Positions 19,196 through 52,954 of a stretch of 64,000 nucleotides of DNA are shown piece after piece. How positions within the stretch are numbered: the stretch's first letter is position 1; each line of letters opens with the position of its first letter. Made by a program: the position numbers and the translations under genes. This DNA is from Leptotrichia buccalis C-1013-b. Lineage in GTDB: Bacteria > Fusobacteriota > Fusobacteriia > Fusobacteriales > Leptotrichiaceae. Under the pieces are notes generated by a model that searched no databases, was not told the origin of the DNA, and saw only the letters and a program-made list of their open reading frames with translations. The stretch covers positions 434,001 through 498,000 of the forward strand of contig NC_013192.1 of the NCBI RefSeq assembly GCF_000023905.1, read 5' to 3'.

Positions 19196-19303
19196 TATAC
19201 TCGAACCCTTTTAAAATAGAACTGCTAAAAATTGAAAAATCTAGGGTTTGAGTAAAATAGTCATATCTTTTGAGTTCAGTTTTAAGGCAGTTTTACTATA
19301 AAA
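19196..19303 (+). repeat. Dispersed ~105-bp intergenic repeat, copy A
   Basis: Starts TATACTCGAACCCTTTTAAAA and ends GTTTTAAGGCAGTTTTACTATAAA. It contains two interleaved near-palindromes: ACTCGAACCC pairs with GGGTTTGAGT, and TTTTAAAATAGAACT with AGTTCAGTTTTAAGG. Copy B at 30826-30934 matches it over its whole length with few differences. Confidence 0.75.
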
Positions 19304-19324
19304 CAAGAATTTAAAAATACTTAT

Positions 19325-27418: not shown

Positions 27419-28171
27419 ATGAAAATTCAAAATAAAACTGGTATTTATACAATAAATTATGATAAAATTGTAGGTTTTAAAGAGAGGGTAACGAGGTTTA
27501 CAGTCAAATTTAGCTTTAAAAAAAATTTAAATTCTAAAGAAAATCCGAAAGAAGATTTTGCACATTTACACGATACGGGACGATTAACAGAATTACTTAT
27601 TGATGGAGCTGAACTACTGATAAAAGAAGCAGACAGAAAAAATCTGAAACGTAAGACAAAATGGGATGTTATTGCGGTAAAAGTTCATGGAGAAATTATT
27701 CTTATAAATACAGCTTTTCATCGTTATATTACAGAATCAATATTTCATAATGAAAAAATTTCTCCTTTTGAAAAACCTTTATATATAAAGCCAGAAATTA
27801 AATATAACAACAGCAAATTGGACTTTTATCTGGAAACTGAAAAAGATAAAATTTACATTGAAGTAAAAGGCTGTACTTTAGTAAATGGCAATACTGCCCA
27901 ATTTCCAGGCTCTCCTTCCACAAGGGCAATAAAACATTTAAAAGAATTGATAGAACTTAAAAAAGAAGGTTTTAGAACAGCTGTGATAATTTTAATATTC
28001 AGGAAATCAGAAATCTTTGCTCCTGAACACACTATAGATAAGAAATTTTCAGAAACTTTTTATGAAGCATTGGAAAATGGAGTGGAAATTTATCCTATTC
28101 TATTAAAGTATGGAGAAGATGGAAATGTATATTTTGAAAAAAATGTAGAAATAGCTGAAAAATCATTTTAA
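27419..28171 (+). CDS. sfsA: SfsA family protein (sugar fermentation stimulation A homologue)
   Basis: 250 residues with an N-terminal OB-like part and a C-terminal nuclease-like fold. Family motifs are AHLHDTGRLTELL (~49-61), YIEVKGCTLV with the acidic residues of a PD-(D/E)XK-like site (~147-156), and FPGSPSTRAIKHLKEL. Named for an E. coli phenotype in maltose metabolism; family members bind DNA and the true activity is uncertain. AAAGGAAG precedes the ATG. It stands between two terminators and is probably monocistronic. Confidence 0.93.
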   Translation: MKIQNKTGIYTINYDKIVGFKERVTRFTVKFSFKKNLNSKENPKEDFAHLHDTGRLTELLIDGAELLIKEADRKNLKRKTKWDVIAVKVHGEIILINTAFHRYITESIFHNEKISPFEKPLYIKPEIKYNNSKLDFYLETEKDKIYIEVKGCTLVNGNTAQFPGSPSTRAIKHLKELIELKKEGFRTAVIILIFRKSEIFAPEHTIDKKFSETFYEALENGVEIYPILLKYGEDGNVYFEKNVEIAEKSF

Positions 28172-28249
28172 TATTAATTTTAAAAAAGTTTACCATATCA
28201 ATAAATTTAAGCTGTTTTGTGTTCAAATTCTAAAATATAATTTAAAATA

Positions 28250-28296
28250 AAAAAAACTGCACCTTCTGTTTTGTGTCTAAGATTTTAGGTGTAGTT
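28250..28296 (-). terminator. Terminator after the small secreted peptide gene (repeated type)
   Basis: On the minus strand AACTACACCTAAAATCT ... GAAGGTGCAGTT followed by a long T run. Shares its conserved blocks with the terminator at 12743-12788. Because it lies between converging genes it may also stop sfsA transcripts. Confidence 0.7.
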
Positions 28297-28367
28297 CATT
28301 TATTTTTGGTACAGTCTTTTTTGAGCAATATGATGTAAAGATTCTATATTTAAATATTTTTATTCTA

Positions 28368-28601
28368 TTATTTCTTTCTTCTTCTTTGAGATTCCTCTTT
28401 TTTTACTGGATGTTGTTTTATAAAGTTTTTAATTCTTTTATCGTCTTTACCTGGTGATTTCTTTTTAGGCGGTAATTTCTTTTTGGGTTGACTAATATTA
28501 GTTTTTGGTTTTCGTATATTTGTAGGCGGAACAGCAAATGACACTATTGATATTCCTGTAATTCCTAAAACTGCGATTATTTTCTTTAAAGTATTTTTCA
28601 T
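28368..28601 (-). CDS. Small lysine/proline-rich secreted protein
   Basis: 77 residues from the chosen ATG. An in-frame ATG 18 bp upstream is less likely because the GGAGTG ribosome-binding site for the chosen start lies between the two. A signal peptide (MKNTLKKIIAVLGITGISIVSFA) is followed by a ~54-residue, very basic mature part with PP, KKK and SQPKKKLPPKKKSP stretches ending in RRRKK. No domain recognised. The charge suggests binding to anionic envelope polymers or nucleic acid, or simply a disordered peptide. It is the only minus-strand gene between sfsA and the cassette that begins with the J-domain protein. Confidence 0.65.
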   Translation of the reverse strand: MKNTLKKIIAVLGITGISIVSFAVPPTNIRKPKTNISQPKKKLPPKKKSPGKDDKRIKNFIKQHPVKKEESQRRRKK

Positions 28602-28749
28602 ATAAATCACTCCATTCAAATTTTTATTTCTTTTCTAGAACACTAATATAGTATCATTTAATTTTGTCAAAATTATGTAAAATTTATGTCTTTTTTGTGA
28701 AGTTTAAAAATTTATTTTTTTAAATATAAAAATATGATTAAAAAATAAT

Positions 28750-28778
28750 TGACAAAAGTTAAAAAATATAGTATTATT
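28750..28778 (+). promoter_or_regulatory. Promoter of the J-domain/FHA/kinase cassette
   Basis: TTGACA (28750-28755), 17-bp spacer, TATTAT (28773-28778), 40 bp before the J-domain gene. The best promoter in front of the cassette. Confidence 0.7.
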
Positions 28779-28817
28779 TAAATATAGTTAAAATAAAATT
28801 AATAAAAAGGAAGGAAA

Positions 28818-29252
28818 ATGGATTATTATAGAATACTAGAAATAAAAGAAGATGCCGATTTTTCAGAAATAAAGAAGAAATATAGAAAATTGGCGATAAA
28901 ATATCATCCTGACAAAAATCCTGGAGATGATGAAGCTGTAAAAAAGTTTCGGGAAATAACAGAGGCTTATGAAGTTCTTGGAGATGAGAAAAAGAGGAAG
29001 GAGTATGACAACAAGAGAAAATTTAAAAATGGACAGGAAAATAATAAAAATAAAAATTTAAAAAATAAAAATAATTTTTCTGATAATAATTTCTCGTTTG
29101 GAAAAGAATTTTTTAAAAGTGCGAGTGAAATGAAAGAAATGTTTGAAAATAGTTTTAATTTGAATAAGATGGGGAAGAAAAAGGTGGAGATGGAAAAGGA
29201 GAATATTAAAGGGCGGTTTGAAAATTTTTTTGATATGCAGAGTAAAAAATAA
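28818..29252 (+). CDS. Short J-domain (DnaJ-like) co-chaperone
   Basis: 144 residues. Residues 1-~68 are a complete J domain: [20 protein letters not shown], then the catalytic HPD in [11 protein letters not shown], and KREYD-like KRKEYDNKR at the end. The rest is a Lys/Asn/Phe-rich tail without zinc finger or client-binding domains, so this is a class III J protein. J domains stimulate the ATPase of Hsp70 proteins. The obvious partner is the Hsp70/actin-fold ATPase encoded 7 kb downstream in the same direction. It is the first gene after a good promoter. Confidence 0.9.
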
Positions 29253-29324
29253 AATTATATTTTTGAAAAGGCAAGTTTTATTTAATTTGTATAATTTGCA
29301 ATTTATATGGAAAGGAAAGTAATT

Positions 29325-30143
29325 ATGTTTTGGATTTTTAGGAGAATTTTTGGAAATTTTAGGAATATTTTTAGAAAACCGCTTGGTCGTGGGAGTATTT
29401 ATAGGCTCGAAAGATTAAGAAGTGTTACAGGAATTAAAAAAAATAAAAATTTTAATATTGAAAAAAATAGCATTAGTGTGGATAAGGGAATTAAAAAATA
29501 TGAAAAACGGAAATTAAATGCTAGAAACCAGAAAAGTTACAAGTTTTTGAGCCTAAAAAATATTTTAATAATGTTAATTTTGATTATTACATTTGTTTTT
29601 GTACATTTTTCTGGATATTCAACAAAGAGCCTTTATCTTTCAATATTTGTTTACATTGGAGTTACACTTTATTTACTTATTGTGGAAAGATTTTTTGAGA
29701 AAGTTGAAGTGGAGGAGGAAATTAGAAATATAAAGAACGAGCGGGAAAGAGAGCATAGTGTGTTTTTAGAAAGAGTCAAGGAAATAGAGAATTTAGAGAA
29801 AAAGCAGATTGAGCATATATTTTTGAAAGATTCAGAAGATTATGATATGAAAATCTGGAAAGTTGGAAGAGCGACTTCACTTCTGATTGGAAAAGAAACG
29901 CCTAGAAATCGGGTGGATATAGATGTGAGTGAAGGAATTTATTCTAACTTGGTTAGCAGAGCTCACGGGATTTTAAATCGAGTGAATGGAATTTGGTATT
30001 ACGAAGATTTAGGTTCTCAGAATGGAAGTGGAATCGAGAGAAATTTAGACAAGCGAAAAATGAAATTAAAGAAAAATATACCAGTAAAAGTAGAATCTGG
30101 AGATATAATTTATTTGGCGACTACAAAAATATTATTAAAGTAA
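29325..30143 (+). CDS. Membrane-bound FHA domain protein
   Basis: 272 residues from the ATG at 29325. The in-frame ATG at 29307 is rejected because GGAAAGGAAAG, the ribosome-binding site, lies between them. The N-terminus is aromatic and basic (MFWIFRRIFGNFRNIFR) and may lie on the membrane. Two hydrophobic helices span ~84-130, then a charged helix (~135-165), then a C-terminal FHA domain (~180-272) with KVGRA, the phosphothreonine-binding core SRAHGILN, and DLGSQNGSG. FHA domains bind phosphothreonine peptides, so it should read out the kinase encoded downstream. 34 bp separate it from the next gene. Confidence 0.88.
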   Translation: MFWIFRRIFGNFRNIFRKPLGRGSIYRLERLRSVTGIKKNKNFNIEKNSISVDKGIKKYEKRKLNARNQKSYKFLSLKNILIMLILIITFVFVHFSGYSTKSLYLSIFVYIGVTLYLLIVERFFEKVEVEEEIRNIKNEREREHSVFLERVKEIENLEKKQIEHIFLKDSEDYDMKIWKVGRATSLLIGKETPRNRVDIDVSEGIYSNLVSRAHGILNRVNGIWYYEDLGSQNGSGIERNLDKRKMKLKKNIPVKVESGDIIYLATTKILLK

Positions 30144-30177
30144 TTTAAAAATGAATAAATAGGAGGAAAAATTTAAA

Positions 30178-30810
30178 ATGAAGTTGGATAGATGTAAAAA
30201 TGGACATATGTATGATGTTTCAAGATATAGCTTGTGTCCGTACTGCAAATCTGAAGGATTGGAAACAGAAGTTCTGGAAGATAAAATTAATTTAGTGGAA
30301 GAAATGGAAGATGAGGATAGAACGACTGCATATTGGTCAAAAGATAGCGTGGTTGACCCTGTTGTGGGATGGATTACGTGTATTGAAGGACATGACAAGG
30401 GGAAAGACTACAGGATTGTGAGCGAAAGGAATTTTATTGGACGTGGTGAGAATATGAATATTCAAATTTTAGGAGACAGCATGATTTCAAGAAAAAATCA
30501 TTGTTCAATAAGCTATAATCCTAAACAGCGAAAATTTATGCTAACTCCTGGAGATGCCAACGGACTTATATATTTGAACGGAGAAGCTGTTTATAATACA
30601 GTTGAGTTGCGGGCTTATTCAGTTATGGAAATGGGAGAAAGTAAATTTGTGTTTGTGAATTTGTGTGGAGATTATTTTGACTGGGAAAAGGAGAAATCGA
30701 GAGAAGACGATTCTGAAAAATTCAGAAATAAAAATTTTAGGAAAAAAAGTAGTAAAAAGGGAAATTTAGAAGTAAAAATTGAAGATTATGAAGAAATGTT
30801 TCAAAACTAA
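30178..30810 (+). CDS. Zinc-ribbon/FHA domain protein
   Basis: 210 residues, no membrane segment. The N-terminus has C6, H10 and C20-P-Y-C23, a small zinc ribbon. Residues ~65-165 form an FHA domain: FIGRGENMNIQI, then SMISRKNHCSI with the Arg, Ser-equivalent and His contacts, and NGLIYLNGE. The C-terminal ~40 residues are Lys/Glu-rich and disordered-looking. The zinc-ribbon plus FHA architecture recurs in bacterial phospho-signalling loci next to PP2C and kinase genes. GGAGGAAAAA precedes the ATG. Followed by a 212-bp gap containing repeat copy B. Confidence 0.88.
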   Translation: MKLDRCKNGHMYDVSRYSLCPYCKSEGLETEVLEDKINLVEEMEDEDRTTAYWSKDSVVDPVVGWITCIEGHDKGKDYRIVSERNFIGRGENMNIQILGDSMISRKNHCSISYNPKQRKFMLTPGDANGLIYLNGEAVYNTVELRAYSVMEMGESKFVFVNLCGDYFDWEKEKSREDDSEKFRNKNFRKKSSKKGNLEVKIEDYEEMFQN

Positions 30811-30825
30811 GTTGGAAAAATCTAA

Positions 30826-30934
30826 ATATACTCGAACCTATTTAAAATTGAACTATTAAAAATTATATAAACTCAGGGTTTGAGTAAAATAGTCATAGCC
30901 TTTGAGTTCGGTTTTAAAGTAATTTTACTATAAA
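30826..30934 (+). repeat. Dispersed ~105-bp intergenic repeat, copy B
   Basis: TATACTCGAACC ... GGGTTTGAGTAAAATAGTCATA ... TTGAGTTCGGTTTTAAAGTA ... TTTTACTATAAA. Nearly the same sequence as copy A (19.2 kb). It lies inside the cassette, between the zinc-ribbon/FHA gene and the PP2C-like gene. Confidence 0.75.
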
Positions 30935-31022
30935 TTTAGAATTTTGATAAAAAGCTATAATTTTAGAAAAAAATGATTTTACTTAAAAAATTAAAAATAA
31001 ATATAAGGGGAGAAATTGGGGA

Positions 31023-33392
31023 ATGAGGAAAGATGAAGCAAAATTTATTACAAAATTTTTGAGTGAAGCTGGAACAAAGGCTGAAAATAGTGATTTTTTT
31101 GGATATGTTTTGCTTGATAATTATGCAATCTGGGTTGTGGCGGATGGATTTGATGAAGAAAATGGGGCAAAGATAGCTGCAAAAATAGCAGTAGAATCTG
31201 TAATCGAATATTTTATGCTACGTCCACGATTTAACTATGAAGTAATAAAGGAAATGATGAACTATGCAAATCTGAAAGTAAAGGAAAAACAGGAAGAAAC
31301 TCAAAAATATTCTCTTATGCACACTTCCCTATTAATTATTATCAGCAATTACAATTCAATTTTATATGGAAATATAGGAAACACAAGATTTTATCACATT
31401 AGAGGAGGCTATATCGTTTCTCAGAGCAGTGATGATACGATTGCACAGCTTCTGGTAGAAGAAAAAGCGTTAAATACATCCGATATGCGATTTCATAGGC
31501 AAAGAAATGATTTGCTGCAGGCAATTGGAGATTTTGGAAAAATTAAGCCAAATATTATAAAAGAGCCGATTGAACTGCTTGAAAAAGATATTTTTTGTAT
31601 GACAACAGTTGGTTTTTGGGAAAATATTGACGATTACGATATGGAAAATGATTTATCTCGGTTTGAAGATAAGAAGCAATGGCTAAATTCGTTGGAAAAA
31701 CGGATACTTGCATCTTTAAGGGAGAATATTGAAAATTATACAATTGCAGGAGTGGAAATTCAGGCTGTTGCAAGTAAGGAGCCAATGGAAAAAGATAAAG
31801 CTAAAATTATAAAAAAGATAGCTTTGGGAGTATTAATTGCAGTTGTAATTATTTTATTTATTGTGATTTGGAATGTAAAAAGGAGAAATAATATTTTACA
31901 GGCGGCAACACAGTATGAAAAGCTGGCAGATGAGGAAGTAATAAGGAAAAATTTTAATAATTCGATTGATAATTTGAAATTGGAAATTGGAGAATATGAA
32001 AAGTTAAAGCCGAAAAGCAGAGGAGTAATAGGCTTCCTTACAAATGCTGAAAATAAGAGAATGGAAGCGGATAAAAAAATTAAGGAAATAAGCAAAAAAA
32101 TTGATGAAACTGAAAAATTGAAAAGGGCGTTTTCGGATATTAATGAAGGAAATGAAATGTTTAACAGCGGAAATTATGATGAAGCAAATGTAAAATATCA
32201 GCAAGCTAAGTATAATTTGAATGAGAACAGCTATAAAAGAGATGAATTGAATACAGAAGAAATCTTAACCACATTAGATTCGCGGATAAATTCGACTGTT
32301 AAATTAAAGGAAGCAAAAAGTTTGGAAACCGCTGGAGATAATGCAGTTACTCAAGGAAGCTATAATTTGGCAAAAGTAAGCTATAAAAATGCGTCTGACA
32401 TGTATTTGGAAAATGGGCGTGCTGATTATGTTTCACAAGTTGAAAAAAAGCTGGAAAATATAGCAGAGAAAGAAAAAACTGCATATAGTGGAGCAATGCT
32501 GGCAGAAAATAAGGGTGATTCCTTGGCACAAAGCAACATAAATTCATCAAGAGAAGCATATTATCAGGCACGACAAATGTATCAGGTATTAGGCGATACT
32601 GTGAAAGTCGGGGAAATTGACAATAAAATTCAGGAATTAAATTCGCAGCAAAATGCTGAACTGCAAACTGCAAATAACCTTGTTCAGGAAGGGCTTTCCC
32701 AAATAACAGCCAACAATCCTGCTCAAGCAATAAGCATTTTCACGCAGGCAAAAAATATTTATCGTAAAATGAAAGATGAAAATAATGCAAAAGCTGTGGA
32801 AAAATTCATAAATCAGGCACAGGAATTTATAAAGTTTGAAAGCCAGAATGCCGAAAAACTGAAACAGCAGGAAATAGAATATTCAGAACAGTTAAAACAG
32901 CAACAAATGCAAGCACAACAGGAATTATCAATAAAAGAAACGGAAATCAAGGCACAGCAGCAGGAAATGGAAAAGGAACGGGAAAGACGAGAAGAAATAT
33001 CCAGAAAAATGGAAAATGCGATAAATCTGGAAATACAAGCTGATACGATGGTTATAAACGGAAATTACGAAGAAAGTATTTCAAAATATGAAAATGCTAA
33101 AAAAATACTTGAAGAAATTAATGAAACAGGAAATTTTGGAAATCAGATGGCTAAAATTGAAGATTTGAATAAAAAAATAGGAAAAAGTGAAGGATATTTA
33201 TTAAAACAGAAGGGGGATGAAAATTTTAAAAATAAAAAGTGGAAGGAAGCTGTGGAAGAGTTTAAAGGTGCAAAGGATAATTTGCAAAAGAATGGGGCAA
33301 AAAAGGAAGAGATAGAGGAAATCGAAAAAAAATTGAAAAAGGCTGAAAAAAAAGCAAATAGGAAGTGGTGGCAATTTTGGAAAATCTTTTAG
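31023..33392 (+). CDS. PP2C-like domain / transmembrane / TPR repeat protein
   Basis: 789 residues. Residues ~8-245 match the PP2C phosphatase fold: AENSDF in place of the usual NED motif, VVADGF (D41, G42), GNTRFYHIRGG in place of GDSR, and ENYTIAGVEI. The usual SDG metal ligand is replaced (CMTTVGFW) and DN of the last motif is EN, so catalysis is doubtful. A single membrane helix follows at ~263-285. The rest is extracytoplasmic by topology: six TPR-like units (e.g. FNSGNYDEANVKYQQAK and INGNYEESISKYENAK), broken by a Gln/Glu/Lys coiled coil at ~615-665. The last residues are WWQFWKIF. Probably a sensor that couples envelope protein contacts to the kinase/FHA circuit. Confidence 0.8.
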   Translation: MRKDEAKFITKFLSEAGTKAENSDFFGYVLLDNYAIWVVADGFDEENGAKIAAKIAVESVIEYFMLRPRFNYEVIKEMMNYANLKVKEKQEETQKYSLMHTSLLIIISNYNSILYGNIGNTRFYHIRGGYIVSQSSDDTIAQLLVEEKALNTSDMRFHRQRNDLLQAIGDFGKIKPNIIKEPIELLEKDIFCMTTVGFWENIDDYDMENDLSRFEDKKQWLNSLEKRILASLRENIENYTIAGVEIQAVASKEPMEKDKAKIIKKIALGVLIAVVIILFIVIWNVKRRNNILQAATQYEKLADEEVIRKNFNNSIDNLKLEIGEYEKLKPKSRGVIGFLTNAENKRMEADKKIKEISKKIDETEKLKRAFSDINEGNEMFNSGNYDEANVKYQQAKYNLNENSYKRDELNTEEILTTLDSRINSTVKLKEAKSLETAGDNAVTQGSYNLAKVSYKNASDMYLENGRADYVSQVEKKLENIAEKEKTAYSGAMLAENKGDSLAQSNINSSREAYYQARQMYQVLGDTVKVGEIDNKIQELNSQQNAELQTANNLVQEGLSQITANNPAQAISIFTQAKNIYRKMKDENNAKAVEKFINQAQEFIKFESQNAEKLKQQEIEYSEQLKQQQMQAQQELSIKETEIKAQQQEMEKERERREEISRKMENAINLEIQADTMVINGNYEESISKYENAKKILEEINETGNFGNQMAKIEDLNKKIGKSEGYLLKQKGDENFKNKKWKEAVEEFKGAKDNLQKNGAKKEEIEEIEKKLKKAEKKANRKWWQFWKIF

Positions 33393-33408
33393 AAGAAATG
33401 GAGGTAAA

Positions 33409-34683
33409 ATGGTAAAAAATATCAAACTGGACACTTATTTTTTTAAGGAATACGAGAAAATAGTTGAAAAAAATACATATTCTGCATATGTTCCGAATGG
33501 AAATAAGGGGATTTGGAGTATAGCTAGCTATAATGAAGGTAAAAAAAAGAAGAATAGTAATTTTGAAAAAATAAATTTAGCACAGATTGGAGTGCGGAAA
33601 ACTATTGAGAAATATTTTGAAAATAATGATTTTTCAATTGAAAATATGGAAAAAATAATGAAAAATTCTAGTAAAAAAGTTATTTTTGAGAAAATGAATT
33701 TAGAAAAAAATATTGAAAATTTAGAAAGAATTGAATCTGAAAGTTTATATTCTCAGTTAAATATTATGATTGATAAAGATAATATAATTGTTGGAAATTC
33801 AGGAAAAACAGCGTTTATTTTATATCGTGGAAATAAAATTTTTGGAAAAATAAGTGAGGAAGAAATAAAAAATATAAAATTAGAGAAAAATGATTATTTA
33901 CTGGCTGGGAGTCCTGAGTTTTGGGAGGTTATTGATGAAAATGAACTTACGGAGATTCATATTGATAAGAAAAGTAAGGAGAATATTGAAAAAAATTTAA
34001 GTGAAAAAGTAAAAAAATTTGAGAAGAAAATAAATAAAGTTATTCCATTTTTTTCGATTTTTGTCGAAGAGATTGAGAATATTGAAGAAAATAATTTGGA
34101 AGATATTGAAAATCGTAAGGGTAATAATCATGAAAAAATATTCTCAAAATATTTGTTTTTAGCTATAGTATTTATTTTTATGTTTGTTTCAGTTGGAAAA
34201 AATATTCAGAAAAATCATTTGAAAAGTTCAAAAAATCCTGTTATTAAAAACAAGGTTTCTAATAAAAATTTTACAATAAATAATTTTATTAAAAGCAATC
34301 TGAGCATTGTAAAGAAAGTAAAAAATGATGATTTTGAAAAGGTAAAAATTAAGTTTGGAAACGATTTTTTTGAGAATGAAGAAATAAAAAAGGAAACTAA
34401 AATAGAAAAAGAGAAAAAAGAAAAAACTAAATTTAAAAATAATTTCAAAAGAAATATTGAAAATATGATAATTTCTAAAAATAAAAATGTGGACAACAAA
34501 ATGGAGAAACAATATAAAAGTGTGAAAAAATCGAAATATAAGCGAATTAGAAATAAAAATTTATATGTGGAAAATAAAAATTTTAAAGATGAAAAAAATA
34601 ATAAAATTTCAGAATTGGAAAAAGAAATCGAAAAAAACTGGGAAATTCTTGGAAGAGATAGAAATGGGAATGTTTTAGGATAG
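33409..34683 (+). CDS. Degenerate PP2C-like (pseudophosphatase) membrane protein
   Basis: 424 residues, 16 bp after the previous gene. Unrecognised at first sight, but the order of blocks mirrors its neighbour's PP2C domain: an initial sheet with GIWSIASY, IIVGNSGKTAFILYRGNKIFG in the place of GNIGNTRFYHIRGG, and LEKNDYLLAGSPEFWEVIDE in the place of LEKDIFCMTTVGFWENID. None of the metal-binding aspartates survives. One membrane helix (~246-263: FLAIVFIFMFVSVG) is followed by an extremely Lys/Asn-rich tail of ~160 residues. I infer a paralogous pseudophosphatase. It is followed by repeat copy C. Confidence 0.6.
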   Translation: MVKNIKLDTYFFKEYEKIVEKNTYSAYVPNGNKGIWSIASYNEGKKKKNSNFEKINLAQIGVRKTIEKYFENNDFSIENMEKIMKNSSKKVIFEKMNLEKNIENLERIESESLYSQLNIMIDKDNIIVGNSGKTAFILYRGNKIFGKISEEEIKNIKLEKNDYLLAGSPEFWEVIDENELTEIHIDKKSKENIEKNLSEKVKKFEKKINKVIPFFSIFVEEIENIEENNLEDIENRKGNNHEKIFSKYLFLAIVFIFMFVSVGKNIQKNHLKSSKNPVIKNKVSNKNFTINNFIKSNLSIVKKVKNDDFEKVKIKFGNDFFENEEIKKETKIEKEKKEKTKFKNNFKRNIENMIISKNKNVDNKMEKQYKSVKKSKYKRIRNKNLYVENKNFKDEKNNKISELEKEIEKNWEILGRDRNGNVLG

Positions 34684-34708
34684 AAATTAAATTTTTAGTT
34701 TTTTTAGA

Positions 34709-34815
34709 TATATTTGAATATTCGAATGTTTAATTGTAAAAAATTAAACGAGTCCAAAGTTTGAGTAGAATTTTCATAACTTTTGGATTTTGTTTTAAAG
34801 CGGTATCGCTATAAT
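34709..34815 (+). repeat. Dispersed intergenic repeat, copy C (diverged)
   Basis: Contains GAATATTCGAATGTTTAATTG, then AAAGTTTGAGTAGAATTTTCATAA and TTTGGATTTTGTTTTAAAGCGGTATCGCTATAA, in the block order of copies A and B. It lies inside the cassette, in the 170-bp gap before the kinase gene. Confidence 0.6.
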
Positions 34816-34853
34816 ATTATTAAAAATTACTGTATAAAAAGGAAAAAAATAAA

Positions 34854-35774
34854 ATGAATTTTTTATCAAAAGGAACCAGACTTAAAAAAAAATATAAAAT
34901 TATAAATTATGTAGCAAAGAGCAAACTTTCAAATATTTATTTGGCGAAAAATGAAAAAAATGAGAAAGTAATTATTAAGGAATGTTTTCCAGAAGAAATT
35001 GTTATTCGGAATGGGAGATATGTTTTTACTAATAAATATAAAAAAGACTTTGAAAACTTTAAGAAAAATTTTTTTAAAGAGAAATGTATTTTGGAAAGAT
35101 TTTTGAAAAAATCTAAAAAGCGAAAAACGAAAAATGAAAGTGGAATTGTAAAAATTGTTGATTTTTTTAGTGAAAATGACACAAATTATATTGTTACAGA
35201 ATATTTTTGCGGAATTACTTTGAAAAAATATATTTTGGAAAATAGAATTGGAAAAAAAGGGCTGGAAGTAAATGAGATTTTGAAAATATTTTTTAAAATT
35301 GCAGATTTAGTTTGCCAAATTCATAAAAAAAATATTATTCATTGTGATTTAAAGCCTTCAAATATTTTGATTAATGTTAGGGGAAATATAAAGATTATTG
35401 ATCTTGGAACTAGTGTGGAAAAAGGTGGAAAAATTGAATTTATAAAGGTTTCGGAAGGATATTCGCCGATTGAAATTTATTCTGAAAAAATAAAGATTGA
35501 TGAAAGAAGTGATGTTTACTCGCTAATGGCAATTTTGTACTTTATGTTCTGTGGAAAAAAAGTGGATGGAGTAATTGAGAGATTTTATAAGCCAGAATTG
35601 GAATTTGAGCGGGAAGTTATTTTGGGATTTGAAAAGATTGAAAAATTTAAGAAAATGGAAGAAGTTATAAAAAAGGGGCTTGAGTATGAAAGGGAAAAAA
35701 GATTTGGGAGCGTTAAGGAAATGGTGGAAGAAATAAAAAAATTTGAGCCAAAAGTTTTGAAAAATTGTAAATGA
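34854..35774 (+). CDS. Eukaryotic-type Ser/Thr protein kinase, soluble
   Basis: 306 residues, kinase domain only, no membrane segment. Visible motifs: VIIKECFP with the ATP-anchoring K42, an alpha-C glutamate candidate E81, catalytic loop H163-C-D165-L-K167-P-S-N170, metal-binding D183 in IIDLGTS, and GYSPIEIYS (the APE region of the GYAPPEQY type). The nucleotide-binding loop reads VAKSKLSNIYLA and has no glycine, which is unusual. The arginine of HRD is replaced by Cys, so activation-loop phosphorylation is probably not needed. Substrates are likely the neighbouring FHA-linked proteins. The stop codon overlaps the start of the Hsp70-like gene (ATGA), implying coupled translation. Confidence 0.9.
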   Translation: MNFLSKGTRLKKKYKIINYVAKSKLSNIYLAKNEKNEKVIIKECFPEEIVIRNGRYVFTNKYKKDFENFKKNFFKEKCILERFLKKSKKRKTKNESGIVKIVDFFSENDTNYIVTEYFCGITLKKYILENRIGKKGLEVNEILKIFFKIADLVCQIHKKNIIHCDLKPSNILINVRGNIKIIDLGTSVEKGGKIEFIKVSEGYSPIEIYSEKIKIDERSDVYSLMAILYFMFCGKKVDGVIERFYKPELEFEREVILGFEKIEKFKKMEEVIKKGLEYEREKRFGSVKEMVEEIKKFEPKVLKNCK

Positions 35775-38476
35775 AAGGGAAAAAGTTAAAAATGAAACTG
35801 TTTTATGAGGAAGAATTAAGAAAGAAATCCTATTATGAAATGTATCAGATTGCGATTGAGGAAAATTTGGTAAATGTTCATCTGGAAACTCCTACAAGGG
35901 AGGAATTAATTGCTCTTCTGATGAAATATAGGGGAGTCAAGGAAAATTACTGCATAGATGAATACAATAAAAATGGACTTGCGAACGTTCAGCATTTATT
36001 TGACAGTAAACTTGGGGAAAGGATTCATAATGAGAATAAAATAAAAGTTCCACATAAAATTATTTTGTATAAGGAACTTGACTTGATGAAGGAAGATAAC
36101 TATAAAATCGAAATTCCTGAAAACGTAAGCAGTGCAAATGTTTTTCTTATAAATGCAAATAATTATCTATGTGGAATTTTCCAGCTGGAAAAGGATTTAA
36201 AAAGTAGAAATAAATATTTTTTAATAAGCAGGAAAAAATTTTTTAGAGTTGAAAAATTGAGAAATAATAAATTTTCATTTTTGTTTTTTAAAGAAAGTGA
36301 TTTAAAATTTATTCATAAATTCTATAATTTAAAGGAAGATGAATTGGAACCGCTTTATCCGTACCAAATGGATTATTACAAAGTTGAAATTGAAAATTTT
36401 ATTGTAAGAAATCTAGAAATGACAAATACTCCGCTTTGTATTGATTTTGGAACTGTAAATACCGCTGTAGGAGCATACTTAGATAAAAATTACGTGAAAG
36501 AGCTGCCAACTAATGATATTTTAAATGGAAATGTTGTGATTGATGCGATAAATTATGTGAAATTTGATGATGGAGAAAGACATTACCGTGAGATTTTTCC
36601 AACACTTGTTTATGTGGATGATTGCAGCGATTCTAAAAATATAAAATATTCGTTTGGTTATGATGTTTTGAGAAAATTGGAAAAAAATGACTATATTGTC
36701 AATGGTTCGATTTTTTATAGCTTAAAAAGGTGGGTTCATGAACATAATAAACTTGAGAAAATTAATGATGAATTTGGAAATATTTTGTATGTGAAAAGGA
36801 AGGATATAATAAAGGCGTATTTGAAATATGTTGTAAATCGTGCGGAATATATGTTCAAATGTAAATTTAAAAAGATTCACGCTTCCAGTCCTGTAAAATT
36901 GAAGGAACAGTTTTTGACAATGTTTCAGGAAATTTTTACAGTGGAAAATAATTACAGGAGAAAAAATTCTAAAAATAAGGAAAATTTTGAAAAAGAAATT
37001 AACGAAAGTAATAAATTCTCCAATGAAAGACATTATGAATATGAAATTATTCGTGAAAATGCAATGGATGAAGCAATCGCAGTGCTTTACAATACGATTG
37101 AAATACAGATAAAAAAGGGAAGATATAAGGAAAATGAGGAATATAGCGCATTAATTATTGACTGTGGCGGTGGAACTACAGACTTAGCGGCTTGTAAATA
37201 TGTAATTAATAGAGACAGGATTTCATATTATCTGGATATAAGGACAAGTTTTGAAAATGGAGATGAAAATTTTGGCGGGAATGATTTGACTTATAGAATT
37301 ATGCAGTTTTTGAAAATTGTGCTGGGAGCAAAATATTCTAAAAATCAGATTATTTCAATTAATGATTTGATAAAATATGACAATGATATGATTTATAAAG
37401 TAATTGATGATGGCGGAGTTGAAAAAATTTTTGAAAAAATGAATTTGGAATATGAAAAATATGAGAACATAATTCCAACAAAGTATTCACATTTTGAAAA
37501 TAAAATGAGTGAAGAGTATAGAAAAATACGGAATAATTTTTATATGTTATGGGAAGCCGCTGAAAATTTGAAAAAGGAATTTTTTACATCTGATGGAAGA
37601 CTGCGAACTCGTTTTGATATTCCAAGAAATTATGAAAAACGGAACGATATTCATATAACTCAGTTAAAAAGCTGGAAAATACATACTTACGAAAATAGAA
37701 TTTTTCATACGATAACGGATTACCCAAAAAATATTTTTACAATAAAAGAAATCGAAAAAATAGTAAAAGCAGATATTTACGGGATGCTCAGAAAGTTTTT
37801 GAATACTTATTACAAAGAAGGTCTGCTTTTTGAATATTCATTGATAAAATTGAGCGGTCAGTCAACGAAAATCAGTACATTTCAGGAAGTATTAAAGGAA
37901 TTTGTACCAGGAAAAATGATTGAATATAAGGAATTGAGTCACCGTGATGATTATGAGCTGAAACTGAACTGTTTGGATGGAGCTATAAAATACCTTGACT
38001 ATAAAAGGTTTGGGCATATGGATGTGGAAATTGTGAATGAAGTTCCGCTTGTGCCGTATTCGGTGTGGGTGGAAAAATATGACGGAGAAAAAGTCGAGAT
38101 GATACAGACTTCACGAAAAGCTGATATTTTGATAGGGCAAATTGATAAAAAAATATCTGCGGAAGAATTGAAAATTTATGTTTATAATGCTGAAGGTGAA
38201 TTGAAAAAGGAAATGATTTATAAAAATGAAGATGACTATGAAGAGATGGATGCAGAAGAAATTTTACCTGAATTTACAAACATAATTTCTCAAAATGATA
38301 CAGATACAATTCAAAACAATACAGTAAGATTTTTCGTTTATACGGATTTGAATAACTGGGGATTTTTTATCGTTCCAATTCAAAGGAAAGCCGATCAGCT
38401 TTATCTGGGACGTAAGGAGTATTTCCCTTATGAAGATAATTTAAGTGAAAATTCTTATTTTGATGGAAATCATTAG
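35771..38476 (+). CDS. Hsp70/actin-fold ATPase of unusual architecture
   Basis: 901 residues (894 if the ATG at 35792 with its own GAAAGGGA site is used). Residues 1-~215 show no known domain. Then comes an actin-like ATPase core: phosphate-1 CIDFGTVNTAVGAY (~221-234), phosphate-2 LIIDCGGGTTDLAA (~459-472), and an adenosine motif IKLSGQSTKISTFQEVLKEF (~697-716), all Hsp70-like. There is no Hsp70 substrate-binding domain. The last ~150 residues are a separate, acidic beta-rich region. The protein is soluble. J-domain, FHA and kinase genes in the same run suggest it is the effector ATPase of the system. SrfB-type virulence-associated ATPases are a possible distant comparison. Confidence 0.8.
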   Translation: MKGKKLKMKLFYEEELRKKSYYEMYQIAIEENLVNVHLETPTREELIALLMKYRGVKENYCIDEYNKNGLANVQHLFDSKLGERIHNENKIKVPHKIILYKELDLMKEDNYKIEIPENVSSANVFLINANNYLCGIFQLEKDLKSRNKYFLISRKKFFRVEKLRNNKFSFLFFKESDLKFIHKFYNLKEDELEPLYPYQMDYYKVEIENFIVRNLEMTNTPLCIDFGTVNTAVGAYLDKNYVKELPTNDILNGNVVIDAINYVKFDDGERHYREIFPTLVYVDDCSDSKNIKYSFGYDVLRKLEKNDYIVNGSIFYSLKRWVHEHNKLEKINDEFGNILYVKRKDIIKAYLKYVVNRAEYMFKCKFKKIHASSPVKLKEQFLTMFQEIFTVENNYRRKNSKNKENFEKEINESNKFSNERHYEYEIIRENAMDEAIAVLYNTIEIQIKKGRYKENEEYSALIIDCGGGTTDLAACKYVINRDRISYYLDIRTSFENGDENFGGNDLTYRIMQFLKIVLGAKYSKNQIISINDLIKYDNDMIYKVIDDGGVEKIFEKMNLEYEKYENIIPTKYSHFENKMSEEYRKIRNNFYMLWEAAENLKKEFFTSDGRLRTRFDIPRNYEKRNDIHITQLKSWKIHTYENRIFHTITDYPKNIFTIKEIEKIVKADIYGMLRKFLNTYYKEGLLFEYSLIKLSGQSTKISTFQEVLKEFVPGKMIEYKELSHRDDYELKLNCLDGAIKYLDYKRFGHMDVEIVNEVPLVPYSVWVEKYDGEKVEMIQTSRKADILIGQIDKKISAEELKIYVYNAEGELKKEMIYKNEDDYEEMDAEEILPEFTNIISQNDTDTIQNNTVRFFVYTDLNNWGFFIVPIQRKADQLYLGRKEYFPYEDNLSENSYFDGNH

Positions 38477-38493
38477 AGAAGGAGAGCAGATTT

Positions 38494-39753
38494 TTGAGAA
38501 AAAAAGATGAAATAATTTGGATTTTACCTACAATATTAATTTTTATTCTTCTCTTAATGATAAAATTCTGTATTCCGAAAATTAATAAAAAATATGTAAT
38601 CGAAAAGATAACACGTGAAAATATTGAGTTATTTGTAGATATGAAGGGAACTGCTGTTGCAAGTAATGTTACTAAAATAGGAATAAATTTAAATCTTTCT
38701 GTCGATGATGTTTACTATAAGACAGGAGATTTTGTGAAAAAGGGCGATATAATAGTAAAATTTAGCGATTATCAGAAAAATAATATCAATGAGAAAAAAA
38801 TGCTGCTTGCAATTAAAAGTTCACAATTAAGAAATTTAGAAAAACAGAAAAAATTAGGAGCCGACGTTAATCAGAAAATTCAGGAATTGCAAGGAGAAAT
38901 TTCGGCACTAAAACTAGAAATACAGCAAGAATTAAAAAATATGCCATTAATTCAAAGAGTTGTAAGAAGTCCATTTGATGCCTATATTGTGAAAATTAAT
39001 GCTTTAAAGGGAGGAATTACAAATGAAAATGAACCGGTATTGATTTTGGCAAGGAAAGAAAATTTAAAAATAGTTAGTGAAAGTGTAGTGAATGAAAAAG
39101 TAAAAAATTTAAATATTGGGAATATTGCAGAAATTGGTATTTCTAAAAGAGAAAATAAAAAAGCTGGTAAAGAAAAGACACTCGAAAAGTTAGTAAAAAT
39201 TGAAGACGGAAAAAATAAGGAAATTTTATCAAATAAGAATTTAAAAGAAAGTTCAGATTTATATTCAGAAAAGAAAATTGTTGAAGGAAAACTCTTTAAA
39301 ATTAATAAAATTAATAATATGAGTATATTTGAATTTTTTCTAGATTCGTTTAAAGAATTATTTTTGAATGAAAATGTGGATATTCGTGTATTTTATCAAA
39401 AGAAGGAAAATATTCTGACAGTTCCTAAACAAGCTGTTGTCTTAAAAAATAAGAAGAGTTATATTTATTTGATTGATAAAAATAATTTGGTTAAAGAAAG
39501 GGAAGTTTTGGTTGGAATTGATAATGGGGAAAAAATTGAAGTTTTGGGGACTGATATTGAGGAAGGAATGGAAATTGTTGGAAATCCTGATGAAAAGATT
39601 GGGAATAATGTAATTGTGGAACGGAAAAAAATTCAGGATGAAGAACTGGAGAATAAAAGAAGGTTGGAAAAACTTGAGAAAGAAAATGAAAAATTAGAGA
39701 ATAGAATGAATGAAAATGAAAGGGAAATTATTAGATTAAAAAGAAAACAATAA
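38494..39753 (+). CDS. HlyD-type periplasmic adaptor (membrane fusion protein), orphan
   Basis: 419 residues. Starts at TTG (GAGAAGGAGAG upstream; no better ATG near). An N-terminal membrane helix (~9-27) is followed by a beta-barrel/lipoyl pattern (DVYYKTGDFVKKGDIIVKF), a short coiled-coil hairpin (~95-150), the returning lipoyl half (RSPFDAYIVKINALKGG), a beta-barrel domain, and a C-terminal coiled coil very rich in Glu, Lys and Asn. Such adaptors normally pair with an ABC or RND pump, but none is encoded nearby. Here it begins 17 bp after the Hsp70-like gene, so it belongs to the cassette and may be a structural or sensing partner in the periplasm. Confidence 0.75.
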   Translation: MRKKDEIIWILPTILIFILLLMIKFCIPKINKKYVIEKITRENIELFVDMKGTAVASNVTKIGINLNLSVDDVYYKTGDFVKKGDIIVKFSDYQKNNINEKKMLLAIKSSQLRNLEKQKKLGADVNQKIQELQGEISALKLEIQQELKNMPLIQRVVRSPFDAYIVKINALKGGITNENEPVLILARKENLKIVSESVVNEKVKNLNIGNIAEIGISKRENKKAGKEKTLEKLVKIEDGKNKEILSNKNLKESSDLYSEKKIVEGKLFKINKINNMSIFEFFLDSFKELFLNENVDIRVFYQKKENILTVPKQAVVLKNKKSYIYLIDKNNLVKEREVLVGIDNGEKIEVLGTDIEEGMEIVGNPDEKIGNNVIVERKKIQDEELENKRRLEKLEKENEKLENRMNENEREIIRLKRKQ

Positions 39754-39785
39754 AAAATCAGGATAAAAGCTACCCTGATTGTTAA
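39754..39785 (-). terminator. Terminator between convergent genes (HlyD-type / CapA-like)
   Basis: AATCAGG ... CCTGATT, 7-bp perfect stem extended by A/T pairs. A T run follows on the minus strand (GATTTTTTATTG), so it mainly ends the capA-like transcript and probably the cassette too. Confidence 0.7.
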
Positions 39786-39795
39786 AAAGATTATT

Positions 39796-40953
39796 TTAAT
39801 TAGAGCTGTCAGATTTTAAAATTTTTCCGTCTTCATTAACAGAAAGCCCATTTCCTTTAGGAAAGTCAGATTTATTTAATGAGATGATTTTCTTAATAAC
39901 CGATTTTTCATTGTCTACAAAAGGACCAAAACTTCCATGAGTTTGTCTTACGGGAATAATTTCTCCAGAAATGAAGTTACCTTTGTCATCTGTTTTTATT
40001 TTAAAAATAGGAGCAAGTCCCATAGAACCAGAAATATTAATTTTCCCATAAGTTGCAAAATTTCCACCGCTATAGGAAATAAATTTGTTTTTATAAAGTT
40101 CAATTGCACGTGTAACATGAGGGCCTTGACCGAAAATAATATCAGCTCCATTATCTATCGCAAAATGAGCAAATTCGTAGACATTTCCACGATTTTCACC
40201 ATGAAAAATTTCATCTTTTCTTGGAATATGTTCTGCACCCGCACCTTCAGCACCACCATGAAACATAACAACTAATATGTCAACTTTTGGTCTTAAATCA
40301 GTTAAAAGTTTTTTTACATAACTGTAATCACTTAATTTTACAGTAACTAAATTGGGAGCAAAAGAAACAAATCCAAATTTTTTGCCATCTTTTTCTAAAA
40401 CTGCGCTTTCAACGATTCCTTTTATTCCCGCATATTTTATACCTAAACTATCTAAATTTTTCATAGTTTCCCTGATTCCAGTTTCTCCAAAATCATTACT
40501 GTGATTATTAGCGATACTTAGATAGTCAAATCCAGCTTCCTTAAAATACTTTCCATATCTGGATGGACTTCGGAAAACATAGCAGACACTCGGATTACCA
40601 CAGCTTTTAGGCTTTCCGCCAGTATCAAATAATGTACCTTCAAGATTTCCGACAGTTATATCTGCATTGTGTAAAATATCTTGTGTATTTTGAAGAATGT
40701 TTGCATCATTTTTAGGAAGCAAATCTTGAGATGGATAATTTGAGCCAAGCATTATATCTCCGACACCGATTATTGTAAATTCTTTTTTTTCATCATTTTT
40801 GTTAGCGGCATTTTGTTGATTGTTAAAATTTTTTTCAGAATTAATAAATTTTGTTATAAAGTCTTTAAAATCAGAATTTGTACTAATAGCTGCAAATGAC
40901 AGGACTAAAAAAACAGAAATACTCAATAAAATTAATAAAATATATTTTTTCAT
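39796..40953 (-). CDS. CapA family protein (poly-gamma-glutamate synthesis-type metallophosphatase fold)
   Basis: 385 residues with an N-terminal signal anchor (ILLILLSISVFLVLSFAA). The PGA_cap fold is seen through VGDIMLGSNYP (~67), VGNLEGTLFD, SIANNHSNDFGETGI, MFHGGAEGAG and GQGPHVTRAIELYKNK, which hold the metal-binding Asp, Asn and His residues. Although named after capsule genes, most homologues stand alone with unknown substrates, and no capB/capC is present here. The gene ends at a terminator shared with the opposite cassette and is preceded by repeat copy D. Confidence 0.9.
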   Translation of the reverse strand: MKKYILLILLSISVFLVLSFAAISTNSDFKDFITKFINSEKNFNNQQNAANKNDEKKEFTIIGVGDIMLGSNYPSQDLLPKNDANILQNTQDILHNADITVGNLEGTLFDTGGKPKSCGNPSVCYVFRSPSRYGKYFKEAGFDYLSIANNHSNDFGETGIRETMKNLDSLGIKYAGIKGIVESAVLEKDGKKFGFVSFAPNLVTVKLSDYSYVKKLLTDLRPKVDILVVMFHGGAEGAGAEHIPRKDEIFHGENRGNVYEFAHFAIDNGADIIFGQGPHVTRAIELYKNKFISYSGGNFATYGKINISGSMGLAPIFKIKTDDKGNFISGEIIPVRQTHGSFGPFVDNEKSVIKKIISLNKSDFPKGNGLSVNEDGKILKSDSSN

Positions 40954-40967
40954 AAATTCCTTTCCTA

Positions 40968-41070
40968 ATATACTCGAATACCTTTAAAATCAAACTGATA
41001 AAATTGCTTGAGTATATTGTTTTCAGCAGATAATTATAATTTTTTAAGTTTGACAGGTATTACTATAAAT
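40968..41070 (+). repeat. Dispersed intergenic repeat, copy D
   Basis: TATACTCGAATACCTTTAAAATCAAACTGATAAAA ... TTTAAGTTTGACAGGTATTACTATAAA. Keeps both ends of the A/B repeat (TATACTCGAA and TTACTATAAA) but is diverged in the middle. It lies upstream of the CapA-like gene. Confidence 0.6.
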
Positions 41071-41414
41071 GTTTTTTGATTTGTTTAGTATATTTTACAC
41101 ATTTTTAGTATAAAAAGCAATACGTCTTTTAGGAATTTAGGACAATAGCATGTTGAAATTTCCTTTTTTCAGTTAGTAACAAACAATTAACAAAGAGAGA
41201 CTGCTAAATTTTAAATATTTTTTATATTGTATTGTTATTTGGATAATCTTTTTTACTATTCAATTTTTCATCAAATTTTATTATAATTTAACAACATTTT
41301 CCTACTTAGTAAAGAAAATAAATTTATATTTTCTTATATTATCAAAAAATATGCATAATAAATCAATTGTATAAAAAAAATATTGATAATAATTTCTAAA
41401 ACGTGGATACCGCA

Positions 41415-48344: not shown

Positions 48345-48468
48345 TTTTTTTTAATTTTTCTTTCCTGTAATTTCACTTCATAGCATATCATTTACAGTTA
48401 GTTATTTTTTAAATAGTTACTATCAAAAAAAGAAAAGTAAATTTATGTTTTTTTATACATAATGATTA

Positions 48469-48617
48469 GGCTGTGTGTGAAAACTTGAAATCTATGTTAT
48501 TTTTAATGTTTTTTTGATTTTATAAATTTACAAATCACGATAAAATCTGTGTTTATTATTTTGATTTTAGAAAAATTTGTTAAAAATTCATCATTTTTAG
48601 AGTTTTCAGACACGCCC
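48469..48617. mobile_element. MITE copy 1 (TA-flanked, ~149 bp)
   Basis: Ends GGCTGTGTGTGAAAACT and AGTTTTCAGACACGCCC are terminal inverted repeats of ~17 bp, bordered on each side by TA (48467-48468 and 48618-48619). The interior is about 80-90% identical to copy 2 at 52744-52894 and has no coding capacity. A TA target duplication points to an IS630/Tc1-mariner-type source. The DNA from 48620 to 49050 holds only scraps of old coding sequence (e.g. LKEATRKWIELIPKKLDIKF in one frame). Confidence 0.85.
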
Positions 48618-49061
48618 TAAGTGAATATTTGATGAATTTTAAAAGAAGCGACGAGAAAATGGATTGAATTGATCCCTAAAAAGTTAGACATAAAATTTAA
48701 TTAGTCAGCAATGGGAGTTAATCCTTTTGATTTTTCTCTTATTCAAAAATATGGTTGATAAAATGATTGAAAAAATATTAATAATACTTTCTAAGAGATG
48801 GATACCTGGTAAAATTTACAGACAAAAAAAGAGAAGAAATTATCTCAAAAGATTTCTACTTCTGCTTCTGAAAGTATCAATTGTTTTTTTAAACTTGTTG
48901 GAAAACTGTAATATGATTAATATGATTTTTTAGAATGAATGATAAAAAAGATGCTCATAAGGTTGAATATAAAAGATAAAACTAGAGTTGAGTATATCTA
49001 AACTTGGGATTTTTTATTTCCTTTATTTAAGTATACTCAGTAATATAGGACTTTAAATAGT

Positions 49062-52894: not shown

Positions 52895-52954
52895 TAATAA
52901 AAAAAAAACTATTTTATAAAAATAAAATAGTAATATGAGTGATTTTTATGAAAT

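Follow-up and report, generated by a model that had tools for sequence, protein, structure and literature searches.

A kinase, FHA and Hsp70-like ATPase cassette of Leptotrichia buccalis probably serves an Hcp/VgrG/PAAR-like injection machine as its control and chaperone module

In the type VI secretion system (T6SS), phosphorylation of Fha or TssL by PpkA promotes assembly, and PppA removes the phosphate from Fha in P. aeruginosa and S. marcescens, as stated in the available part of PMC10482370. Contracted T6SS sheaths are dissolved by ClpV, an Hsp100; the Francisella T6SS has no clpV and needs ClpB (available part of PMC10433429). Francisella also possesses a DUF4280 PAAR-like tip protein, IglG, together with the TssB/C homologues IglA/B, and the same 2016 report noted DUF4280 proteins in Gram-positive bacteria and raised a phage-like or T6SS-like translocation system as a possibility (PMC5349215). 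A table in the accessible portion of PMC3482391 places T6SS (VgrG, PAAR, Hcp1) in Firmicutes among other phyla, so T6SS-like parts in Firmicutes are already known and are no new sighting. Contractile injection machines of Gram-positive bacteria include those of Streptomyces and other extracellular contractile injection systems (eCIS; accessible portion of PMC12237407). Here we analyzed a 64,000-nucleotide stretch of the Leptotrichia buccalis C-1013-b chromosome (positions 434,001 to 498,000 of NC_013192.1; hereafter the window), which contains a cassette of eight genes encoding a J protein, a membrane FHA protein (FHA1), a zinc-ribbon FHA protein (ZnFHA), two PP2C-like membrane proteins (PP2Ctpr and PP2Clike), a Ser/Thr kinase, an Hsp70-like ATPase and an HlyD-type adaptor (Table 1). 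We conclude that this cassette probably controls an Hcp/VgrG/PAAR-like injection machine of Fusobacteriota and Bacillota, akin in kind to the T6SS, and supplies its chaperone.

The tie between the cassette and a predicted injection machine is strongly supported, since the two share loci and, in 250 genomes of one order, the ATPase co-occurs exactly with a DUF4280 protein and a highly conserved 720-aa protein. The latter is referred to here as S720, which, like H142, B430, C230 and D260, is a working name. In Fusobacteriaceae and Bacillota, the J, FHA, ZnFHA, PP2C and ATPase genes share a locus with H142, VgrG, DUF4280 and S720. The gene order in Lysinibacillus is kinase-S720-H142-J-FHA1-ZnFHA-PP2C-PP2Ctpr-B430-C230-ATPase, after which come D260, a 233-aa protein, VgrG, a pentapeptide protein, a 185-aa protein, DUF4280 and VgrG; in Fusobacteriaceae it is S720-H142-D260-J-FHA1-ZnFHA-PP2Ctpr-kinase-ATPase, then B430-C230 and, farther on, VgrG. 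Synteny was counted in 78 Bacillota-type and 35 fusobacterial loci, every one chosen for holding the ATPase (the 78 include the fusobacterial locus L080 and the probable contaminant L081), with family members scored as adjacent when consecutive and less than 1500 bp apart. B430-C230 and C230-ATPase were each adjacent in 75/78 Bacillota-type loci, and J-FHA1, FHA1-ZnFHA, ZnFHA-PP2C and PP2C-PP2Ctpr in 67/78 each. S720 and H142 were neighbors in every locus holding S720 (66/66 Bacillota-type, 18/18 fusobacterial), and the kinase adjoined the ATPase in 29 of the 35 fusobacterial loci. Since its order is kept in other genera and in Bacillota, the cassette is more than a chance grouping. The earlier note, made from the letters of the window, had stated that the cassette was not a T6SS, there being no other T6SS genes; this was wrong in substance, as the genome encodes H142-family, VgrG-like and DUF4280 proteins elsewhere and other genera place H142, VgrG and DUF4280 in the cassette's own locus.

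Presence and absence of the genes gave the same picture on a larger scale. Among 250 genomes of the order to which Lysinibacillus belongs, S720, the ATPase and DUF4280 were each found in 32, the same 32 genomes, and the remaining 218 held none of the three (Fisher p 4e-41 for a pair, a value that ignores relatedness). In Fusobacteriota, the ATPase was matched in 32/98 genomes. One of these matches, in G047 (83 residues, E 2e-4), was set aside, its stretch (L077) holding no cassette gene; equally weak matches in G094-G096 were accepted, since the row of genes is present at those loci. S720 was found in 34 of the 98 genomes, among them every one of the 31 accepted for the ATPase; without the ATPase, it occurred as a remnant in G075, as a fragment in G050, and in G093, in whose relatives the ATPase was barely detected. 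Strong H142 matches were confined to the 32 genomes with a full-length S720, plus G050. S720 was also present in 7/7 Bacillota genomes checked, either within the ATPase stretch (L109, L133), 8-14 kb away (L085, L088), ~60 kb away (L151) or on a different contig (L082, L084).

All eight genes were found in the same order in nine Leptotrichia relatives with a window-type copy (L042-L050), so the order is not confined to one strain, as it would have been under the refuting outcome named in the earlier note. PP2Clike is divided into two open reading frames (ORFs) in L046, and HlyD into three in L048. The ATPase was absent from three of 13 Leptotrichia genomes. The HlyD adaptor and PP2Clike were lineage-specific, occurring in 17/35 and 15/35 fusobacterial loci, respectively. 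The closest named relatives of the ATPase, among the matches listed, were those of Leptotrichia sp. oral taxon 879 and L. hongkongensis (91%), and the best 80 of 348 relatives in genome contigs were mostly from Paenibacillus, Lysinibacillus, Brevibacillus and Clostridia. Trees of S720 and of the ATPase each placed ten Leptotrichia in a window-type clade, apart from a second-type clade, and because these copy-type clades match, we read the unlinked genes of Leptotrichia as having been inherited as one set.

A divergent variant was observed in the Lysinibacillus order (G291:C13, L206-L207), with S720, H142 and VgrG adjacent and a DUF4280 gene. It has two further clear HSP70 genes; its products include an HSP70 protein of 726 aa that also matches kinases weakly, a 699-aa Hsp70-VWA fusion and a protein of 520 aa whose HSP70 match is weak (E 0.075). 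Injection loci rich in Hsp70 may thus form a wider family. A 12,266-base contig filed as the archaeon Candidatus Methanovirga meridionalis (L081) carries a fusobacterial-like S720-to-ATPase cluster and is probably a binning contaminant.

The tip and tube parts belong to a known kind, the Hcp/VgrG/PAAR injection machine. VgrG of Lysinibacillus matched PF05954 and PF04717 above cut-off and has phage hub and T6SS injector domains, VgrG of the relative G070 matched PF05954 above cut-off, and the VgrG of a second cluster in L. buccalis fell just under the cut-offs (E 5.6e-6 and 6.2e-5). When hhalign was run locally, the alignment of VgrG to E. coli VgrG (probability 93%) was the only positive. The DUF4280 PAAR-like tip protein was recognized in Lysinibacillus (E 1.6e-35) and in L. 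buccalis, where it has 1331 aa (E 4e-14). H142 is weakly TssD/Hcp-like: PF17642 (TssD), the only Pfam family matched, was hit by 6/9 members (best E 0.0013), with scores below its curated cut-off, and is the sole sequence evidence. S720 is a sheath candidate by position, size and conservation only, being about the size of TssB plus TssC and standing before the Hcp-like gene. The order tssB-tssC-hcp occurred in 4/8 annotated plasmid T6SS stretches; the E. coli REL606 comparison stretch had no annotated T6SS.

The 901-aa ATPase is Hsp70-like according to its AlphaFold2 model, with a nucleotide-binding domain (NBD) fold and a substrate-binding beta domain (SBDbeta), in agreement with the actin/Hsp70 fold proposed earlier. 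The model (pLDDT 81.6, pTM 0.80, 50 natural rows) comprises an N-terminal extension (~1-215), an Hsp70 NBD fold (~217-752) and an SBDbeta-like region (~752-886). Its top Foldseek matches were BiP and DnaK (best 6asy, E 3.4e-21). VIA-align placed residues 217-749 on the DnaK NBD (5oby) with Z 27.5 and a root-mean-square deviation (rmsd) of 3.2 over 362 aligned residues, and residues 215-886 on BiP with its beta domain (5e84) with Z 26.0 and rmsd 5.2 over 465 residues; overall Z was 26-28, rows including the beta domain had rmsd values of 4.6-9.6, and the N-terminal ~215 residues were barely covered by the BiP and DnaK matches. The motifs DFGTVNT (225), DCGGGTTD (464) and SGQS (695) are present. 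As with DnaK and BiP, there is a J partner with HPD, which is kept in 73/75 J-family ORFs of the loci; given the Hsp70-like model and this conserved HPD, the natural reading is that J protein and ATPase form an Hsp70/J pair. Unlike DnaK and BiP, the window ATPase has an extension of ~215 residues, no long C-terminal lid helices in its model and only 13-19% identity in the listed structure alignments. It matched no Pfam family at E≤0.1, the HSP70 profile included, and a 14-row ATPase profile matched no Hsp70 among PDB sequences at E≤10. The true start may be Met8, which by eye is preceded by an AAGGAA-type site.

Pfam matches showed that a Ser/Thr kinase, FHA proteins and a PP2C-family protein are encoded together in the cassette, as in the T6SS threonine-phosphorylation pathway. 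PP2Ctpr retains VADG, with TTVGFWEN standing where SDG is expected, and the pattern DG(x)GG occurred in 0/102 PP2Ctpr and 0/18 PP2Clike ORFs, fragments counted. From this motif reading, PP2Ctpr is probably catalytically dead and both PP2C proteins of the window look dead, which supports the earlier description of the cassette as containing pseudophosphatases. Most of the earlier family calls (J, both FHA proteins, PP2C/TPR and kinase) were likewise confirmed by Pfam, with the TPR match of PP2Ctpr sub-threshold and the HlyD match below its cut-off; the 424-aa PP2Clike protein had no Pfam match at E≤0.1, and its PP2C nature was judged by eye only. A separate PP2C gene occupies the gap between ZnFHA and PP2Ctpr in G084, G090, G063 and most Bacillota loci; in the window, a copy of the dispersed repeat lies in this gap, at 30859-30944. 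Single sequences of the separate PP2C from L133, L058, L209 and L210 have intact-looking motifs and are in that sense active-looking, DG(x)GG being found in 7/69 members of the family and many reading DGISG instead. The L. buccalis genome encodes one further PP2C, at 1.084 Mb. PADLOC also matched the kinase to PD-T4-6/mad6, which we dismissed as similarity common to kinases in general.

In the single 2,465,610-base contig of L. buccalis, the machine genes are split over at least four chromosomal places, with the control module inside the window. S720, D260 and the DUF4280 protein lie at ~1.725-1.733 Mb, H142 lies at 0.888 Mb, and VgrG lies at 1.209-1.216 Mb, with B430, C230 and a second H142-like gene past three genes of opposite strand. 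B430 beside this VgrG forms a single ORF, against three in G070. The 1331-aa protein (L163:9375-13370, ~1.73 Mb) adjoins S720 and has DUF4280 in its middle and, toward its end, a match to DUF5675 slightly under cut-off; it resembles a tip protein with cargo domains attached. A second copy of the system, now decayed, was found at 0.978-1.034 Mb (L055, L009, L010), in which ATPase, HlyD and PP2Ctpr are broken, several VgrG genes and repeated lipoprotein-like ORFs are present, and a transposase-like ORF (by eye) stands between PP2Ctpr and ZnFHA. PF05943 (TssC) gave 0 matches in the genome at E≤10, a control giving matches in 4/14 genomes, and the best match to TIGR03345 (ClpV) scored 824 bits, under the cut-off of 885, and reads as ClpB-like.

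Set beside the T6SS-i with its PpkA-Fha-PppA pathway, the system is alike in having a weakly Hcp-like protein, VgrG, a PAAR-like tip, a Ser/Thr kinase, FHA proteins and PP2C, and in that S720 precedes the Hcp-like gene, as sheath genes do in some T6SS loci. By its gene content it is nonetheless not a canonical T6SS: TssC and ClpV are not detectable in the L. buccalis genome, and TssB, E, F, G, K, J and L were not recognized among the family proteins in comparisons that were weak and did not include TssM. For TssE, F, G, K, J and L, these comparisons set S720, H142, B430, C230 and D260 against the single E. coli SE11 proteins, which is insensitive, and genomes were not searched. The system further differs from T6SS-i in its two FHA proteins (one with a zinc ribbon), dead membrane PP2C/TPR protein, J protein and Hsp70-like ATPase, and in occurring in Bacillota besides Fusobacteriota. 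It shares the DUF4280 PAAR-like tip with the T6SS of Francisella, which unlike it has TssB/C homologues, and the report on that system contains neither a kinase/FHA/Hsp70 module nor any named machine genes of Gram-positive bacteria (PMC5349215). For the T6SS-associated toxins of Firmicutes in PMC3482391, the available part names ClpV-like AAA+ ATPases rather than Hsp70/J, and mentions neither DnaJ nor PP2C. The eCIS were set beside this system by description only, from the accessible portion of PMC12237407, and not by sequence.

The earlier note had also set the cassette apart from TerY-P triads, which consist of a VWA (TerY) protein, a PP2C and a kinase, and this holds, as no VWA match was found in the eight proteins at E≤0.1. 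TerY-P triads and the GTPase/Hsp70/kinase/PP2C conflict systems resemble the present loci in combining kinase, PP2C and sometimes Hsp70, DnaJ and VWA; they center on MoxR-VWA or GTPases, neither a VWA nor a GTPase match was found in the window cassette, and VgrG does not occur in the available part of the paper (PMC7159879). A literature search, judged by title and start of abstract, gave no description of this gene set among the matches listed; preprints and most subscription papers lay outside it, and it is not proof of absence. Papers naming both Leptotrichia and type VI secretion were, among the matches listed and by the same reading, general microbiome papers.

In the mechanism we propose, S720 would be the sheath or its equivalent and H142 the tube, with B430, C230 and D260 as baseplate or tip parts. 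The kinase would phosphorylate threonine on a machine protein, FHA1 and ZnFHA would dock at the phosphothreonine and thereby allow assembly, in the manner of Fha in T6SS, and PP2C would reverse the phosphorylation, while the membrane-bound dead PP2C/TPR proteins might sense or scaffold. The J protein would deliver its client to the dedicated Hsp70, the likeliest client being S720, as subunits or assemblies; the Hsp70 would then drive assembly or recycling, the job of the Hsp100 ClpV in T6SS. The pair might thus handle S720 or the tube, in assembly or in recycling. The logic offered earlier, in which the kinase writes, FHA proteins read, PP2C-like proteins sense or scaffold and J protein plus ATPase acts as chaperone, fits the gene set and parallels T6SS threonine phosphorylation, and is partly supported overall. 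More tentatively, and at slightly under an even chance in our judgment, these loci represent an undescribed class of contractile injection machine, with a one-chain sheath (S720) unlike TssB/TssC, Hsp70/J replacing the Hsp100 ClpV, kinase-FHA firing and, in some variants, several Hsp70-family proteins, in Fusobacteriota and Bacillota; eCIS enter this judgment by description only.

It is possible, if somewhat doubtful, that the machine is as proposed and that Hsp70/J acts before firing as a cargo chaperone for spike, tube or effectors, with sheaths recycled by a generic ClpB or not at all. The ClpB-like protein of L. buccalis and the ClpB requirement of the Francisella T6SS lacking clpV (PMC10433429, available part) would suit this, as would the position of the ATPase gene beside B430-C230 in 75/78 Bacillota loci, B430-C230 lying on the VgrG side in Leptotrichia. 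The ATPase always accompanies S720 in the 250 genomes, as a core component would, but DUF4280 does likewise, so this does not separate the two accounts. We consider it unlikely that the machine is a tube and spike that do not contract, with S720 as, for example, a scaffold or coat and Hsp70-like ATP hydrolysis driving export. S720 had no sheath homology in any comparison made, the genome has no TssC match, and the G291 variant has further HSP70 genes, all of which agree with such an export machine; the Hcp-like gene nevertheless follows S720 in all 18/18 and 66/66 loci holding S720, recalling the tssB-tssC-hcp order of 4/8 plasmid T6SS stretches, and the size of S720 approximates that of TssB plus TssC. 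Very improbable, finally, is a general envelope phospho-signaling and chaperone unit, the reading of the earlier note, whose link to injection genes would reflect shared island residence only. The Leptotrichia cassette is indeed unlinked to machine genes, but the co-occurrence is exact in 250 genomes and nearly so in Fusobacteriota, unlinked genes included, copy types match in the S720 and ATPase trees, and gene order is conserved.

Several observations weigh against the cassette being the control and chaperone module of an injection machine. S720 had no Pfam match and no match among PDB sequences (S720, H142 and the ATPase gave chance matches only), its AlphaFold2 model reached only pLDDT 38 (47 rows, one at 51% and the others at 72-97% identity to the first), and hhalign against 11-member TssC and 9-member TssB profiles gave probabilities of ≤3.4% (0.3% for TssC; 3.4% for TssB, noise level). 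The H142 of L. buccalis alone had no Pfam match, and hhalign detected no similarity between H142 and a 6-member Hcp profile. These hhalign comparisons, in which the TssB, TssC and Hcp profiles were diverse and a TssE profile of two members was included, were weak, FHA1 against TagH, the intended positive control, failing too. Among 50,697 phage records, none was matched by S720 in tblastn at E≤1, though a fold may be shared all the same, and viral contigs held no confirmed relative; neither the Lysinibacillus ATPase nor its S720 had a plasmid match. No membrane complex of the machine was recognized, and B430, C230 and D260 had no family assignment. The J gene was not found in the locus of the reduced-genome relatives G065, G082, G083, G091, G092 and G094-G096, and G068 and G088 hold C230-/H142-like genes without S720 or ATPase. 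The S720 and ATPase trees, which carry no support values, differ on G081, G084 and the branching of the second type. By motif reading, no active PP2C was seen in the window cassette. The VgrG of the system in L. buccalis is split into two overlapping ORFs (G070 has one, 513 aa), and the strain may thus carry a damaged machine. The kinase was found in only 15/78 Bacillota loci and in 9/60 of those of at least 22 kb, although the Bacillota stretches end ~10 kb before the ATPase and kinases farther upstream would be missed; one Paenibacillus had no kinase in the 15 kb before S720. The phospho-switch may therefore not be universal in Bacillota, and the absence of the kinase from most of these stretches reduces our confidence in the proposed role of the cassette.

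With the cassette read as part of an injection machine, the Gram-positive DUF4280 proteins are tied to a definite gene set whose presence and absence match exactly in 250 genomes. Candidate sheath and tube genes are supplied, Hsp70/J rather than ClpV is indicated as the chaperone, and the T6SS-like machine of Bacillota and Fusobacteriota becomes directly testable. An Hsp70-like family that no Pfam model recognized here also gains a context linked to function.

The eight ORFs lie on the + strand at 28818-39753, at the same coordinates as given previously, and the spacing reported earlier (16-212 bp, with an ATGA overlap) was borne out by gaps of 54, 34, 212, 16, 170, -4 (ATGA) and 17 bp (Table 1). 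No clear ribosome-binding site was seen 5' of the FHA1 start at 29307. The site at 28749-28777 is promoter-like only, such sites being frequent in this AT-rich DNA (92 promoter-like sites against 69.7 in shuffles). The hairpin at 39756-39780 was the sole terminator-like site called in 28100-41100 (1 against 3.0 in shuffles) and would end the transcript of the convergent PGA_cap neighbor on the - strand. No + strand terminator-like site was called within or after the cassette in the scan of 28.1-41.1 kb, including at repeat copies B and C, named in the earlier note as places where transcripts might end.

Table 1. Coordinates of the cassette genes and nearby features within the window (Pfam and NCBIfam searches at E≤0.1).
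Feature	Position	Strand	Basis or remark
Promoter-like site TTGACA-17-TATTAT	28749..28777	+	40 bp 5' of J gene; consensus scan, 11/12 matches
J protein, 144 aa, J domain with HPD	28818..29252	+	PF00226 E 1.3e-27
Membrane FHA protein FHA1, 278 aa, two predicted transmembrane (TM) segments	29307..30143	+	PF00498 E 5.2e-7; hydrophobicity scan
Zinc-ribbon FHA protein ZnFHA, 210 aa	30178..30810	+	PF16697 E 5.7e-8, PF00498 E 2.4e-6; CxNGH...CPYC read directly
Dispersed repeat copy	30859..30944	+	Repeat family D1; more copies in genome
PP2Ctpr, PP2C-like/TPR membrane protein, 789 aa, one TM segment 266-284	31023..33392	+	PF13672 (PP2C_2) E 1.2e-8
PP2Clike membrane protein, 424 aa	33409..34683	+	No Pfam match; family traced by profile
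Third dispersed repeat copy	34740..34825	+	Repeat family D1, 65% to reference copy
Ser/Thr protein kinase, 306 aa, with HCDLKPSN and DLG	34854..35774	+	PF00069 E 9.2e-25
Hsp70-like ATPase, 901 aa	35771..38476	+	AlphaFold2 model, Foldseek, VIA-align
HlyD/RND-type adaptor, 419 aa, TTG start	38494..39753	+	TIGR01730 (RND_mfp) E 1.3e-19, below its curated cut-off
Terminator-like hairpin	39756..39780	-	Between HlyD and convergent PGA_cap gene; T tail on - strand

Two kinds of repeats were observed in the window. A dispersed repeat of ~86-110 bp has copies at 19227-19312, 30859-30944 and 34740-34825, and at least 41 matches to the window query were found in the genome, some of them short and 37 of them on the repeat stretch. 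A second repeat forms a pair at 48467-48620 and 52742-52897, which starts with TAGGCTGTGT and ends with ACGCCCTAA or ACACCCTAA, the ends being 92-94% alike.

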